Of a DNA stretch of 30,163 nucleotides, positions 1 through 30,163 are shown one piece after another; the first letter of the stretch is position 1; each line of letters begins with the position of its first letter. The notes under the pieces are model-generated. The model ran no database searches and was not told where the DNA came from. It was given only the letters and a program-made list of their open reading frames with translations. Origin of the DNA: a virus. The stretch spans positions 1 through 30,163 of IMG/VR virus record IMGVR_UViG_3300021964_000326; one strand, written 5' to 3'. The translations under genes were made by a program, and so were the position numbers.

Positions 1-146
1 AGTTATTAGCAAGCCGGTTACACCATCAAGTGCCCAAGTTGCACCACAAACGTCACACGGTTCTCTAAACGTAGAGACTCAGGACGTAGACGGCTCCACT
101 ATCTTTGTGGATCGTAACGGTAAGTCGATTAGAGACTTTGTGTTCT
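1..146. repeat. Terminal overlap, left copy (circular closure)
   Basis: Bases 1-146 match 30018-30163 with one mismatch (G at 127, C at 30144), a silent serine codon change. The repeat lies inside one long reading frame, which continues unbroken when the ends are joined. This fits assembly of a circular or circularly permuted molecule better than a physical terminal repeat, because a packaging end inside a tail gene would be unusual. Confidence 0.95.
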
Positions 147-14353: not shown

Positions 14354-14553
14354 CAACATGTCTGGCCTCGTCGCTTCGCATTCGTGTGCCTCGCTAGACA
14401 GCTCTTGCATCGTTGAGTTGCTCCCTTCGTTAGTTCTGCCATCGGGAATATTCCCTTGCAGTTCATGCAAACCTGCATGTCCCTTGGTACGCCATACGGT
14501 ATTTGGGTTATCTTGTTACCTTCCGCAAGCCATTTCTTTAGCGCGTCATTCAT
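14353..14553 (-). CDS. Small zinc-ribbon protein
   Basis: A 66-residue protein with two CxxC pairs (Cys29, Cys32 and Cys49, Cys52), likely binding one zinc, and a basic tail. The N-terminus (ALKKWLAEGNKITQIPYG) resembles a short helical DNA-binding segment seen in other small phage proteins. The start overlaps the preceding stop (ATGA) and the stop overlaps the next start. It is co-transcribed with replication/recombination genes. Possibly an accessory DNA-binding or transcription factor. No family name can be given with confidence. Confidence 0.75.
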   Translation of the reverse strand: MNDALKKWLAEGNKITQIPYGVPRDMQVCMNCKGIFPMAELTKGATQRCKSCLARHTNAKRRGQTC

Positions 14554-15020
14554 CCTCTGTTTTCCTTTTGTACTATGGCAAACCCTACGTTGCCAAGTTT
14601 AGATTTGATCGGGAACTGCGGGCCAAGCAGGTCATCTACCCTGTCGGTTTCTTGCTTGATCCAAGACGGTAGATTCTCAGGGCACTTCACCTTCACACCG
14701 TTGTACTCAACCCCGTGTTTGTATTCCAAGTAACGGGTGGCGAGCATCTCGTTCTCACTGGTGCCGTTAGTTCTGCCCTCGCTCCCCTCGCTCTTTGATG
14801 TGCTCAGTGCAGTGATCTGGTTTCTAATATCCTTGGGGGTGGGGAAGTGGTCGAGCTTCTCTACTAACAAGCCCATAGCCTCCTGCATGAGAGCGGGGCT
14901 GTCGCGGCAGAACGCTTTGTAATGAACGTCACCCAGTCCATCGGGCCAGTCGCGTTTCTTGAACGGATGCAGTTGGAAGAACGGTCGGTACAGTGCAGTG
15001 AATTCTTGTTTTTCAATCAT
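14550..15020 (-). CDS. Putative replication protein (helicase-loader-like, tentative)
   Basis: The ATG at 15020 is preferred because it follows an AGGGG ribosome site. The open frame extends to 15131, but those residues are low-complexity and hairpin-encoded. The 156-residue product has an N-terminal helical region (FTALYRPFFQLHPFKKRDWP, about 6-25), an LMQEAMGLLVEKLDHFPTPKDI segment (near 44-65) and a Ser/Glu-rich linker. The pattern of a Trp-containing helix, then a helix bundle with FPTP, recalls small phage helicase loaders such as lambda P-like proteins. No ATPase motif exists. Its place in the recombination/replication operon supports a replisome role, with no closer proof. Confidence 0.5.
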   Translation of the reverse strand: MIEKQEFTALYRPFFQLHPFKKRDWPDGLGDVHYKAFCRDSPALMQEAMGLLVEKLDHFPTPKDIRNQITALSTSKSEGSEGRTNGTSENEMLATRYLEYKHGVEYNGVKVKCPENLPSWIKQETDRVDDLLGPQFPIKSKLGNVGFAIVQKENRG

Positions 15021-16982: not shown

Positions 16983-16999
16983 CTGTTGGCAGTCAACAG
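16983..16999. promoter_or_regulatory. Palindromic operator candidate upstream of cro
   Basis: CTGTTG-GCAGT-CAACAG is a perfect 6+6 inverted repeat with a 5-base centre, ending at the AGGAG ribosome site of the Cro-like gene. The size and place fit an autoregulatory operator for a Cro dimer. Single CTGTTG half-sites also occur in the leaders at 15030, 16913 and 20465. Binding is inferred. Confidence 0.6.
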
Positions 17000-17009
17000 G
17001 AGATATGAA

Positions 17010-17222
17010 ATGAATCCAGAAGTATTTGAAAGGTTAAGGGTGAAGGCTGGCGGCGTGAGCGCGTTGGCTAGGGCGTGTGGAACATACCCACAACAGGTTC
17101 AGCATTGGCGGCGGAATGGTGTACCATCCATGCATGTGGTTAGGTTGTGCCAAGTTTCCGAAGGCGAGGTTAAACCTTACGATTTAAGACCGGACATCTT
17201 CTTAGAAGGCTGGACGGTATAG
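17010..17222 (+). CDS. Cro/YdaS-like repressor
   Basis: The ATG at 17010 follows AGGAG by 7 bases. The frame is open upstream to 16986, but that would run through the operator. The 70-residue protein fits the Cro/YdaS HTH family: KAGGVSALARACGTYPQQVQHW carries the HTH (about 11-32), followed by RRNGVPSMHVVRLCQVSEGE and a DLRPDIF ending typical of the family. It is transcribed away from the leftward operon and probably represses both early promoters. No CI-type repressor or integrase is found, so a lysogeny switch is not evident. Confidence 0.88.
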   Translation: MNPEVFERLRVKAGGVSALARACGTYPQQVQHWRRNGVPSMHVVRLCQVSEGEVKPYDLRPDIFLEGWTV

Positions 17223-17231
17223 TTTGTGGTC

Positions 17232-17282
17232 GGCTCCCTTCCCGCCCCTCCTCCCCTGTTGTTGGGAGTCGGCCCTCTTTTA
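17232..17282 (+). terminator. Possible weak terminator and boxA-like sequence after cro
   Basis: GGCTCCC (17232-17238) can pair with GGGAGTC (17264-17270, one G-U pair) around a pyrimidine-rich 25-base loop, followed by a short CTCTTTTA (17275-17282). The T-run is short, so termination would be leaky. CTCTTTTA also resembles the boxA antitermination element. Position after cro is like lambda tR1/nutR. Moderate to low certainty. Confidence 0.35.
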
Positions 17283-17285
17283 CGG

Positions 17286-17561
17286 TTTGTCCTGCACCGA
17301 AAGCAGCAGAGGCTTGTACGCAATTACGTACGGGTGCCGGTGGTTAACCGGCTGGACAAAATGACCAAGACAATTTGCTCGAGGCTGCGCGTCTTAGTAG
17401 GAACGCGAAACTGAACACTCGTTAATGGTGGCAAAAACCCTCTCCCCCAGTTGATATATGGGCTGAGAGGTGGGCAACGTCTGGGCCAGCGTGGAAATGG
17501 TCGAGTGGAAATACAGCGAGTAATACAGACAAAGATTAGTATGGGCCACCAAACCCTACTA
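17286..17561 (+). ncRNA. Candidate structured RNA between cro and the next gene
   Basis: No credible protein is encoded in 17223-17562. The strand can fold as follows. Domain 1 is closed by TTTGTCC/GGACAAA (17286-17292 with 17354-17360) and holds hairpins GTACG/CGTAC (loop CAATTA) and GCCGG/CCGGC (17336-17352, 7-base loop). Next is CGCGT/ACGCG near 17387-17407. Domain 2 is closed by CACTCG/CGAGTG (17416-17421 with 17502-17507) and holds CCTCTC/GAGAGG plus CCCA/TGGG (17439-17470). Last is a bulged TAGTA-GGG/CCC-TACTA hairpin (17537-17561). It could be a cis-acting antitermination RNA, a small RNA or an origin structure. It does not fit a tRNA or group I intron. Confidence 0.5.
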
Positions 17562-17586
17562 AATGTCACGACGTGGGAGAGAGAAA

Positions 17587-17913
17587 ATGGATCGACCGGA
17601 TCGACTAGATCAGATACTGACCAGATTGAGTGAGCGAATTAATGAGTGGGAGGGGGCGAGTCGGGAAGCAATCGAGGCGGAAACTGCTTTCAAGAGCTTT
17701 GAAGCTGCTAGTCAGAAAGCACATATGGACGCAGGGTCGAGTGCTGCTAAGGCGCAAACAGAAACACGATCAACGGGGGAGTGGGCCAACCACTATCGAG
17801 CAGTCCAGCAAGCCAGTTTGATGGCCGAGAAGCTGAAGAAGCAGATCATGCTCGGGCAGTTGATGTTCGACGCAGAGCGCACGAAGCAGGCTAACCAGCG
17901 CCGCATTGTCTGA
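17587..17913 (+). CDS. Phage protein of unknown function upstream of ninG
   Basis: The ATG at 17587 follows GGGAGAG and is preferred to an ATG at 17563 that abuts the last leader hairpin. The 108-residue product is helical throughout, with an EGASREAIEAETAFKSFEAA coiled region, a SAAKAQTETRSTGEW segment and a C-terminal LMFDAERTKQANQRRI. I know this pattern from short unassigned proteins in phage early regions. The stop overlaps the ninG start (TGATG). No catalytic motif. Possibly an accessory to NinG, from position only. Confidence 0.72.
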   Translation: MDRPDRLDQILTRLSERINEWEGASREAIEAETAFKSFEAASQKAHMDAGSSAAKAQTETRSTGEWANHYRAVQQASLMAEKLKKQIMLGQLMFDAERTKQANQRRIV

Positions 17914-18341
17914 TGGCGAAGAAACCCACAAGCGCAACACTTCGCGCTAAAGCATTGAAGACGCTACAAAAACTTGCCAGAATCAGCGCGGCTGATGACT
18001 CGGGATTCGCTGCTTGCGTATCTTGTGGCAAGATTCAGCACTACAAAGAGATGGATGGCGGTCACTTCATACCGAAGGGATCATCGTCCAGATGGGCGCT
18101 GGAGGAACAGAACGTCCACCCACAGTGCCGAGGCTGTAACGGCTTCGGGATGAAACACGGCAGCGCAGAGGCGCAGTATACGATCTGGATGATTGACTGG
18201 TATGGCAAAGACGCAGTCGAGCACATGCTTTCAACGAAGAAAGACCCGATCAAATTTTACGCGGCAGACTACCGCGACATGATTGCCGACTGGGAAGAAC
18301 AGATCAAAGCGCACGAGCGTCGAGTGGGTGAGCGCAGATGA
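17913..18341 (+). CDS. ninG: NinG (Rap) family recombination protein
   Basis: A 142-residue protein with a basic N-terminus (SATLRAKALKTLQKLARI), CVSCGKIQHYKEMDGGHFIP with the first zinc pair (near residues 35-38), then NVHPQCRGCNGFGMKHG with the second pair, and a helical C-terminus. This is the HNH-like fold of lambda NinG/Rap, which acts on branched DNA and directs RecBCD- or Red-type recombination. Lambda NinG is 204 residues, so this one is compact. Together with Rad52 and SSB-like proteins it makes up the recombination set. It overlaps both neighbours by 1-4 bases. Confidence 0.9.
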   Translation: MAKKPTSATLRAKALKTLQKLARISAADDSGFAACVSCGKIQHYKEMDGGHFIPKGSSSRWALEEQNVHPQCRGCNGFGMKHGSAEAQYTIWMIDWYGKDAVEHMLSTKKDPIKFYAADYRDMIADWEEQIKAHERRVGERR

Positions 18342-20075: not shown

Positions 20076-20087
20076 CTAATCCCCTTG

Positions 20088-20107
20088 GGCCGCTTACGCG
20101 GCCTTTT
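20088..20107 (+). terminator. Rho-independent terminator for the rightward early operon
   Basis: GGCCGC (20088-20093), loop TTAC, GCGGCC (20098-20103), then TTTT. Read rightward this is a compact terminator that would end transcripts from the cro-to-19814 operon about 270 bases after its last stop. The minus-strand stop codon of the 20453 gene lies in the stem; read leftward no T-run follows. Confidence 0.65.
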
Positions 20108-20453
20108 GTGTTGCATACTCGTTAACGAAGTTAGATAGGTTGCCATCGTAAACCACGTTGAAAACATCGCTATCGTAAGACTGCCGCTTGTAGGCGACGA
20201 CGGACCAGATTCCTGCTTTCTTTTCTAAGTCATACCGGTATTCGGTATCGCCATGCCAGTCGTGGCTCTTGGTCATTTCGGCATTCTCGTTTGCCCAAAG
20301 GAAGCAAGGTAGGAATTGCCGTCCACTGATCCGCATGAGGTCAATAGCGTCGCGGAAGTATTCAGCAGCACCAGACAGATAACCGTCATAGTGGATGTAA
20401 ACGGTAGACGTGTTGAGTGGGGTTTTGATTTGGTATGTAGCTCGTGTAGACAT
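20094..20453 (-). CDS. Conserved protein of unknown function, MSTRATY family
   Basis: A 119-residue protein with a strong AGGAG ribosome site. It opens MSTRATYQIKTPLNTSTVYI, then HYDGYLSGAAEYFRDAIDLM, a start shared by a family known in bacteria and phages without assigned function. Middle: FLPCFLWANENAEMTKSHDW; then a beta region with YRYDLEKKAGIWSVVAYKRQ. The length is about normal for the family. It is the first gene of a three-gene leftward unit with its own promoter. It may be a host-takeover protein, but nothing in the sequence proves it. Confidence 0.8.
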   Translation of the reverse strand: MSTRATYQIKTPLNTSTVYIHYDGYLSGAAEYFRDAIDLMRISGRQFLPCFLWANENAEMTKSHDWHGDTEYRYDLEKKAGIWSVVAYKRQSYDSDVFNVVYDGNLSNFVNEYATQKAA

Positions 20454-27205: not shown

Positions 27206-27210
27206 TTTGG

Positions 27211-27241
27211 GTGGGGGGTTTCGGCCCCCCGCTCTTTTTTT
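27211..27241 (+). terminator. Strong Rho-independent terminator after the capsid genes
   Basis: GTGGGGGG (27211-27218) pairs with CCCCCCGC (27225-27232), 8 bp with one U-G pair, loop of six, followed by CTTTTTTT to 27241. It would end most capsid transcripts and raise capsid output relative to the tail genes, which depend on read-through. Confidence 0.92.
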
Positions 27242-28512: not shown

Positions 28513-30163
28513 ATGGCTAAGACACGATTCATACAGTCTAGTTTTGTAAGCGGTGAGCTTAGTCCTCTACTGAAGGGTCGTATTGACCTTGCCCAGTATT
28601 ATCAGGGCGTACAGACCGCGAAGAACGTGGTTATCGTGCCTCAAGGCGGGATGAAGCGTCGGCCCGGTACCGAGTATGTGCAGACTGTTCTCAACACCCT
28701 TACTCGCAATACTACGGTTGCCACAGCGCCCAATGGTGGAACGGCTGCCAGCGTAAATGATGGCAACGATGCAACGGTATGCACCACCACTGTAGGTATA
28801 TCCACGACAAACCCGTATGTGGTTTGTAAGTTCGACTTAGGATCTGCCACAGCGGTAGAGTTTTTTGACGTTAGGAACGTGTTTCTGTCTGCTGGTACGT
28901 CTAGCGAGTTCAAGATCCAGTATTCAACGGACGATGTGACCTACACTAACGCGGCTAGTGTCCCGCTGCTGGGCGTATCCTCGCAGGATTTTCGGTTATT
29001 TGTAGGCAAGACGGCTAGATACTGGCGATTGGCTAGAATCGGCTCTACTGATCTAACTACTTCTGTGGTTTCGGTGGGTACGGTTGCGCCGATTGAGCAG
29101 ACTGCTACGGAATCTAACTTCAAGATGTTGGATTTCAGCGTGGAGGATGACCGGCACTACCTGTTAGTACTGACTGAGAACAACATTCGCGTATTCCGCG
29201 CACCAAATACTCATGTGGCGGACATAAAGACCACTATCGCGTCCGCTGATGTAAACGAAGTTAGAGATACGCAGGTAGAGAATGTGATGCTGTTGTTCCA
29301 AGAGGACACGGTTCCACAGCGATTGATTAATTTAGGCACTGACACTGATTGGTTTGTTGATGACGTGCCGTTTACCAACGTGCCTCAGTACGATTACAGC
29401 GATTCATCTAGCCCCACGCCCGTCAATGATGTGCAGGTTATGACACTTACCTCCTTTGTTGCTGGTGATAAGTTCCAGATAGACATAGAGGGAGTGGTAT
29501 CCAAGAACATTACGTTTGCTGGTGACGCTACTGCGGACGAGCAGGCGGCTACTGTTGCAAATATCCAACGCAATATCCAAGAAATGCCGGTGATGGGTGA
29601 GACAGGCGTGACTGTTGCCCGTACTGGTGCCGCTCAATACTCCATCACAGCGGGTGGAGAGTCGGCAAAAGACTTTGAATTGTACGCGGCCTTCGCTACT
29701 ACAGGCACTGCAAGCAAGACTATCGCCTTTGCCAAGTCTGCAAACGGTTCTCCACGGCGCGAGGACGTGTGGTCGGCTACCCGAGGCTACCCCAAGACAG
29801 CATGTTTCTATGAAGGACGGTTGGTTCTTGGCGGTACTCGGTCTAAGCCACAGTCTTTGTTCTTCTCCAAGTCTGGATCGTTCTTTGATTTCGACATTGG
29901 CGACGGCGATGATGACGAAGCAATCTTTGTGACTATTTCATCCCGCAAACTGAACGACATTGTTGACGTGTTTCCCGGTCGCAATCTGCAGGTATTCACT
30001 TCTGGGGCTGAGTTTGCAGTTATTAGCAAGCCGGTTACACCATCAAGTGCCCAAGTTGCACCACAAACGTCACACGGTTCTCTAAACGTAGAGACTCAGG
30101 ACGTAGACGGCTCCACTATCTTTGTGGATCGTAACGGTAAGTCCATTAGAGACTTTGTGTTCT
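28513..30163 (+). CDS. Tail tubular protein B (nozzle), N-terminal part
   Basis: This gene runs off the right end and continues at base 1, ending at 976; joined length is about 826 residues. It opens MAKTRFIQSSFVSGELSPLL, then GRIDLAQYYQGVQTAKNVVI and GGMKRRPGTEYV, a hallmark of podovirus tubular B proteins. Residues about 60-200 look like an inserted F5/8 type C (discoidin) domain: NDGNDATVCTTTVG, YVVCKFDLGSATAVEFFDV, FKIQYSTDDVTYT, ARYWRLAR. After it, the nozzle sequence resumes (LVLTENNIRVF, GRLVLGGTRSKPQSLFFSKS). It starts one base after the previous stop. Confidence 0.92.
   Translation, partial: MAKTRFIQSSFVSGELSPLLKGRIDLAQYYQGVQTAKNVVIVPQGGMKRRPGTEYVQTVLNTLTRNTTVATAPNGGTAASVNDGNDATVCTTTVGISTTNPYVVCKFDLGSATAVEFFDVRNVFLSAGTSSEFKIQYSTDDVTYTNAASVPLLGVSSQDFRLFVGKTARYWRLARIGSTDLTTSVVSVGTVAPIEQTATESNFKMLDFSVEDDRHYLLVLTENNIRVFRAPNTHVADIKTTIASADVNEVRDTQVENVMLLFQEDTVPQRLINLGTDTDWFVDDVPFTNVPQYDYSDSSSPTPVNDVQVMTLTSFVAGDKFQIDIEGVVSKNITFAGDATADEQAATVANIQRNIQEMPVMGETGVTVARTGAAQYSITAGGESAKDFELYAAFATTGTASKTIAFAKSANGSPRREDVWSATRGYPKTACFYEGRLVLGGTRSKPQSLFFSKSGSFFDFDIGDGDDDEAIFVTISSRKLNDIVDVFPGRNLQVFTSGAEFAVISKPVTPSSAQVAPQTSHGSLNVETQDVDGSTIFVDRNGKSIRDFVF
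30018..30163. repeat. Terminal overlap, right copy
   Basis: Copy of bases 1-146 with C at 30144 in place of G at 127, a silent change. Removing one copy gives a 30,017-bp circle with one uninterrupted tubular B gene. Confidence 0.95.

Follow-up and report, generated by a model that had tools for sequence, protein, structure and literature searches.

The window analysed here, i.e., the whole 30,163-base stretch of IMG/VR virus record IMGVR_UViG_3300021964_000326, raises the question of what lies in the noncoding DNA that runs from the end of a cro-like gene, the gene opening the rightward operon, to about position 17586. The region holds a highly structured RNA of about 280 bases, which represents a new phage RNA family outside the catalogued ones, and the analysis establishes its fold, strand, boundaries and conserved place. 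A sequence-only reading had put a structured RNA at 17223-17562; the structured RNA is upheld by covariation, but the conserved extent is about 17289-17567 on the + strand. The ORFs at the two ends of the window (1-140 and 30020-30163) have about 47 identical residues in common, which suggests that the sequence is terminally repeated and the genome therefore complete.

Relatives of the region

Through the adjacent NinG protein, 80 IMG/VR loci were gathered, and 64 of them carried DNA resembling the region. Pattern scans supplied further loci, bringing the total fetched to 139 (many contigs being fetched twice), which contained 68 distinct domain-B sequences, all from uncultured phage contigs. 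Alignment A1 was made with MAFFT, on sequence only, from 37 diverse members. Besides group 1 there is a second, very diverged lineage, group 2 (L079/L175, L173, L174, L176, L178, L179). Among the distant NinG relatives L187-L234, model matches were weak (best E 0.013) and not accepted, including one in L234 that sits within an ORF. The region has no relatives in INPHARED phages, searched by DNA and by p108 protein, or in PLSDB plasmids, searched by DNA, and one exact two-part pattern gave zero matches to the RNA in GTDB genomes. We found no published report of the RNA in a literature search that left out most subscription journals.

Evidence for a structured RNA

When a hand-derived structure was laid on the 37-member alignment, standard pairs filled 95.8% of the base-pair cells. 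The covariation score was 0.349 versus 0.157 for shuffled alignments, with none of 500 shuffles reaching the observed value, and it fell to 0.058-0.079 with slid partners. With a tree inferred from the unpaired columns alone, parsimony counted approximately 50 coordinated pair-to-pair changes, e.g., six each at P2 31-51 and at P1a 20-183. Folding energy told a different story, since the full region folds as a single sequence with ordinary energy (z -0.06) and domain B over the 37 relatives has a mean z of -0.87. Of the checks proposed by the sequence-only reading, comparison with shuffled sequences thus failed it and covariation across related phages bore it out. As thermodynamic folding gave no sign of structure, the covariation is the decisive evidence, and with ordinary folding energy as the sole refuting criterion the RNA finding would have been lost.

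A covariance model trained on 25 group-1 members only, with nested helices, recovered each of the five group-2 loci examined, with 98-103 bits and E about 1e-24 (E-values of a custom model being rough), and found nothing convincing in eight other loci, the HK022 stretch included. The fuller model R1 finds a single copy of the RNA in the window (227 bits). The + strand is fixed by the invariant G-U pair in PKa together with many G-U variants. A protein-coding region is rejected because the length modulo 3 is random and open frames are few, and the conserved coding frame that the earlier reading had named as grounds for refutation is absent. The probability that chance stems or a hidden coding region account for these data is practically nil, because the ordinary single-sequence folding energy is outweighed by the covariation and the hold-out search and because coding is excluded; it is virtually certain that the region after the cro-like gene is a real structured RNA.

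The comparison with Rfam that had been advised likewise came out clearly, with none of 4227 families matching in the window at gathering or at permissive thresholds (best sub-threshold match, E 3.4) and none in L038, L050, L059, L040, L174, L020 and L113. ARAGORN reported 0 tRNA or tmRNA genes.

Architecture of the RNA

The RNA is built of two domains with at least nine helices and four supported pseudoknots (Table 1). The closing helix of domain A corrects a longer stem proposed earlier, TTTGTCC/GGACAAA (17286/17354), of which only the core GTCC/GGAC pairs; relatives have GCTC/GAGC, or GCCC/GGGC in L176 by inspection. The first hairpin varies as CAC/GTG, TGC/GCA, TGT/ACA, TAC/GTA and CGC/GCG. 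In PKd the loop of the third hairpin pairs with the linker, as GGTTG/CGACC in 36 distinct sequences, as GGTTA/TGACC in 14 and in no mixed combination, a pattern that may reflect few events since the variant goes with the module type. Between T1 and domain A, six relatives (L030, L038, L040, L050, L051, L058) carry an additional, optional module some 60 nt long, with the sequence AGACCAAGGCA...TGCCTGTTAGCTCG-CCCGTC-CGAG-GGTC-GACGGG, a pseudoknot-like pairing of its own and some compensatory changes.

Table 1. Coordinates of the RNA elements and neighbouring features in the window
Feature	Position	Strand	Remarks
Predicted leftward promoter	16996-16968	-	TTGACT-17-AATAAT; -35 overlapped by palindrome
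Palindrome CTGTTGGCAGTCAACAG	16983-16999		between divergent early operons
cro-like regulator gene	17010-17222	+	YdaS family, PF15943, E 3.9e-12
T1, 11-bp hairpin	17228-17274	+	pyrimidine-rich loop, then weak T-tract
Domain A, four-way junction	17289-17357	+	closing GTCC 17289-17292 / GGAC 17354-17357
Domain A hairpins, three	17293-17305, about 17313-17334, 17337-17351	+	
PKd	17342-17366	+	loop GGTTA 17342-17346 with TGACC 17362-17366
P1, closing helix of domain B	17376-17381/17517-17522 and 17385-17387/17514-17516	+	
P2 hairpin	17388-17392/17403-17407	+	TAGTAGG in loop
PKc	17395-17401 with 17555-17561	+	P2-loop TAGTAGG with CCTACTA; excludes P6
P3	17416-17420/17503-17507	+	
PKb	17427-17432 with 17545-17550	+	GGTGGC with GCCACC
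P4, hairpin of variable length	17439-17444/17465-17470	+	
P5	17477-17479/17490-17492	+	ACG/CGT
PKa	17484-17487 with 17499-17502	+	P5 loop GGCC with GGTC; invariant G-U
P6, 3' hairpin	17536-17561	+	TTAGTA-T-GGG / CCC-TACTAA; PKb formed by loop
p108	17587-17913	+	first gene after RNA in group 1
NinG/Rap-like gene	17913-18341	+	PF05766

Domain B comprises six helices. Two-sided changes occur in 7 of the 9 pairs of P1, while P2 and P3 are both 100% paired, with 11 and 7 coordinated changes, respectively; P3 is the stem CACTCG/CGAGTG (17416/17502) of the earlier reading, now seconded by CG-to-UA and UA-to-CG compensations. P5 appears in relatives as AAG/CTT, GAG/CTC, GCG/CGC and AGG/CCT, and PKb as GGTGAC/GTCACC and GGTGTC/GACACC.

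The last strand of the RNA, CCTACTA, has two alternative partners, the 5' strand of P6 or the P2 loop. The latter pairing, PKc, is kept in 34 of 34 group-1 members, with an extra loop G paired to an extra 3'-strand C in L032, L035, L043, L050 and L143, and group 2 keeps it in other letters (GGTGC/GCACC, by inspection). In L020 and L040 the P2 loop and the 3' strand have changed together, with P6 left one pair short, and for this reason PKc is better supported than P6. As PKc alone is statistically modest, with one pair showing two-sided changes, we infer as possible a conserved three-strand switch made of the P2 loop, the 5' strand of P6 and their common 3' strand.

Genomic setting of the RNA

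In both lineages the RNA always lies directly 3' of a cro-like gene, and the palindrome CTGTTGGCAGTCAACAG is a possible operator of the cro-like protein. Ahead of the RNA the earlier reading had placed a leaky terminator, and indeed T1 (-20.2 kcal/mol, shuffle z -3.2) is terminator-like in most relatives; such a hairpin is usually there, and its position is conserved, with long T-tracts in several relatives, even where its sequence has been replaced, as by an unrelated terminator in L113. Just before the RNA, promoter signals average a best score of 5.7 against 5.5 in shuffled DNA, whereas the score before cro is 7.9; the RNA is therefore most likely co-transcribed with cro on the rightward transcript.

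Downstream, the most likely start of the next gene is ATG 17587 and not 17563, since protein conservation begins there, behind a GGGAGAG Shine-Dalgarno. This gene, p108, occurs in all RNA-carrying contigs, save those that are cut before reaching it, and in 0 of the 48 RNA-less NinG relatives, and conversely the RNA is present in all p108-carrying contigs that include the place downstream of cro. About 20 nt separate the RNA 3' end from the p108 start in group 1. In group 2 the distance is about 2 kb, taken up by a terminator-like hairpin and other genes, among them the gene after the RNA, a putative helicase named from its sequence; in L174 the hairpin (-6.2 kcal/mol, then T7) stands shortly 3' of the RNA. 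Three RNA-less relatives of similar layout (L199, L220, L234) have, as judged from translation, a replication-initiator-like gene directly after cro, in the place of the RNA. Between rightward late-region genes of the window there is a strong intrinsic terminator at 27209-27241 (GGGTGGGGGGTTTCGGCCCCCCGCTC then T7).

The model of p108 is a long helical hairpin (pLDDT 93.6), whose best plausible PDB similarity is to the T4 UvsY recombination mediator (TM 0.78, probability 0.99, with a non-significant E of 0.5). It was considered as an N-like protein and rejected, because its N-terminus is not conserved; the earlier observation that no N-like gene is evident thus stands, p108 being predicted all-helical and showing no conserved arginine-rich start. 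The divergence of the RNA does not track that of the cro, p133, SSB-like or p193 proteins (rho -0.05 to 0.28). For p108 the correlation is 0.58, or 0.33 without group 2, and may signify linkage, or else a partnership with, or function concerning, p108.

Possible function

The RNA probably acts in cis, as argued by its constant place after cro although the downstream gene differs by lineage, and as fits with an upstream terminator-like hairpin that would keep its abundance low. A host partner is favoured by the failure of RNA divergence to track the cro, p133, SSB-like and p193 proteins, and an RNA that modifies polymerase in cis is favoured by the putR-like place, the want of an N-like protein and the long operon with its terminator at 27209. 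Our best guess, still a tentative one, is a put-like, cis-acting RNA that would act on host RNA polymerase. Made within the rightward transcript that begins upstream of the cro-like gene, the RNA would fold as polymerase leaves the hairpin after cro and copies the element; once the last strand is made, its 3' end would pair with the P2 loop, replacing P6, and PKc would lock a compact fold beside the RNA exit channel. Host polymerase would thereby come to resist pausing and termination along the long operon that follows. HK022 put, an unrelated and far smaller RNA, confers such resistance with no protein; here p108 could be a protein partner, as ConAn1 is for conAn2 RNA.

The hairpin after the RNA in group 2 and the terminator at 27209 were counted for termination resistance; the first terminator-like hairpin is one that the RNA cannot suppress in cis, since the RNA lies after it. 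Several further points speak against the put-like reading: strong terminators are scarce over the next 6 kb in group-1 relatives, the element is four times the size of put and far more complex, L199, L220 and L234 do without it, and p108 correlates best with the RNA, which may come from linkage or may mean that the role of the RNA concerns p108. That we face a functionally new class of RNA machine, in which a multi-pseudoknot switch RNA replaces a phage protein, either loading onto polymerase or starting replication, seems rather doubtful.

Structured transcripts that prime DNA synthesis are exemplified by ColE1 RNA II and the T4 origin transcripts, the ColE1 type being marked by a persistent RNA-DNA hybrid where replication begins. 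A replication origin or primer RNA, whose transcript would enter an R-loop or be processed into a primer, with the alternative pairings controlling hybrid formation, would be unlikely here, and yet it is a serious rival in view of the missing recognisable initiator among the early genes scanned and of recombination-like neighbours (a Rad52-type annealing protein, SSB-like, NinG and p108 with its weak UvsY match). It would also agree with the helicase following the RNA in group 2 and with the initiator-like gene that takes the place after cro in RNA-less relatives. Origin hallmarks, however, were not seen, GC skew follows gene direction only and is uninformative as an origin test, the UvsY match concerns no more than a plain helical hairpin and its E-value is non-significant, and group 2 has a terminator-like hairpin after the RNA.

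It is likewise improbable that the rightward transcript is cut to release a noncoding RNA that works in trans, be it as a particle (of RNA only or of RNA with protein) or as a host-factor decoy. Such a product would suit a fold that is compact, has several pseudoknots and keeps its unpaired residues highly conserved, the terminator-like hairpins on both sides in group 2 and the precedent of the stand-alone phage RNAs GOLLD and ROOL (PMC12286853), but there is no promoter signal before the RNA, a terminator-like hairpin lies upstream and group 1 has no 3' terminator.

A riboswitch-like cis switch for p108 and the following genes, setting P6 against PKc, would draw on the possible three-strand switch conserved in both lineages, on the co-occurrence of RNA and p108 and on their close spacing in group 1. 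We consider it distinctly unlikely, given that the group-2 RNA is ahead of other genes and far from p108, that the switching strand overlaps neither Shine-Dalgarno nor terminator, and that L020 and L040 keep PKc without a perfect P6, which may not matter. Self-cleavage or splicing by a ribozyme, or a site of RNA processing, is very unlikely, for the multi-pseudoknot core and invariant unpaired nucleotides that might suggest it are met by zero Rfam ribozyme or intron matches and by no interrupted gene.

Comparison with known systems

Lambda relies on boxA plus a boxB recognised by the arginine-rich N protein. The RNA resembles lambda nutR/tR1 in that it follows cro, precedes the next rightward genes and is accompanied by a terminator, and differs in that no N-like protein is evident, the element comes after the terminator, and the CTCTTTTA earlier taken for a boxA-like sequence proves to be the T-tract of the terminator, present in only 4 of 37 relatives.

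With HK022 put it shares a place past an early phage promoter (here a presumed one), probable action in cis and no evident dedicated protein. The likeness in position noted earlier also holds, putR being found about 270 nt past the start of PR transcription (PMC9378689) and the present RNA starting an estimated 300 nt or so past the presumed rightward start. Nevertheless, put has about 70 nt and two stem-loops, with no pseudoknot described (PMC9378689), as opposed to about 280 nt, four pseudoknots and a single copy here, and model R1 finds nothing in HK022 26000-40751. Size, architecture and homology all place the RNA outside the put family.

In the conAn system of pLS20-type plasmids, too, a structured RNA opens a long operon and goes with a small protein, obligate in that system, of which p108 would be the analogue, though co-occurrence of the RNA and p108 is explained by clade-wide inheritance as well; conAn belongs to Gram-positive conjugative plasmids (PMC8955417). 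EAR/epsC processive antitermination RNA is similarly a structured RNA early in a long operon, and cis-acting as ours probably is, but of bacilli exopolysaccharide operons (PMC8955417), and the window has no Rfam match. GOLLD and ROOL, like our RNA, are ornate, pseudoknotted and phage-encoded; in contrast, they measure 600-800+ nt and lie near tRNA islands (PMC12286853), while no Rfam match and no tRNA are found here.

Phage RNAs with a fold this elaborate and evolutionarily proven are rare. Should this one work on RNA polymerase, phage antitermination by RNA alone would have a second, unrelated case, and HK022 put would be no curiosity; should it prime replication, the way in which a 30-kb phage replicates without a recognisable initiator would be explained. 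With secondary structure, strand and boundaries specified, direct testing has become possible.

Other features of the early region

The leftward gene at 14553-15020 (-) encodes a conserved early protein of 156 aa with the motif FxLHPFKxRDW, whose confident helical model matches no known fold. For p193, considered as a helicase loader and rejected, the predicted structure has no PDB fold match. In some relatives (L012, L013, L020, L029 and L024, L043, L047) extra genes lie between p108 and NinG, one being PAPS reductase-type-like and another YqaJ-type exonuclease-like, as judged from sequence. Finally, a rightward-facing terminator-like hairpin at 20087-20104 marks the end of a lone leftward gene (20094-20453) and recurs in L039 with a weaker T-tract.
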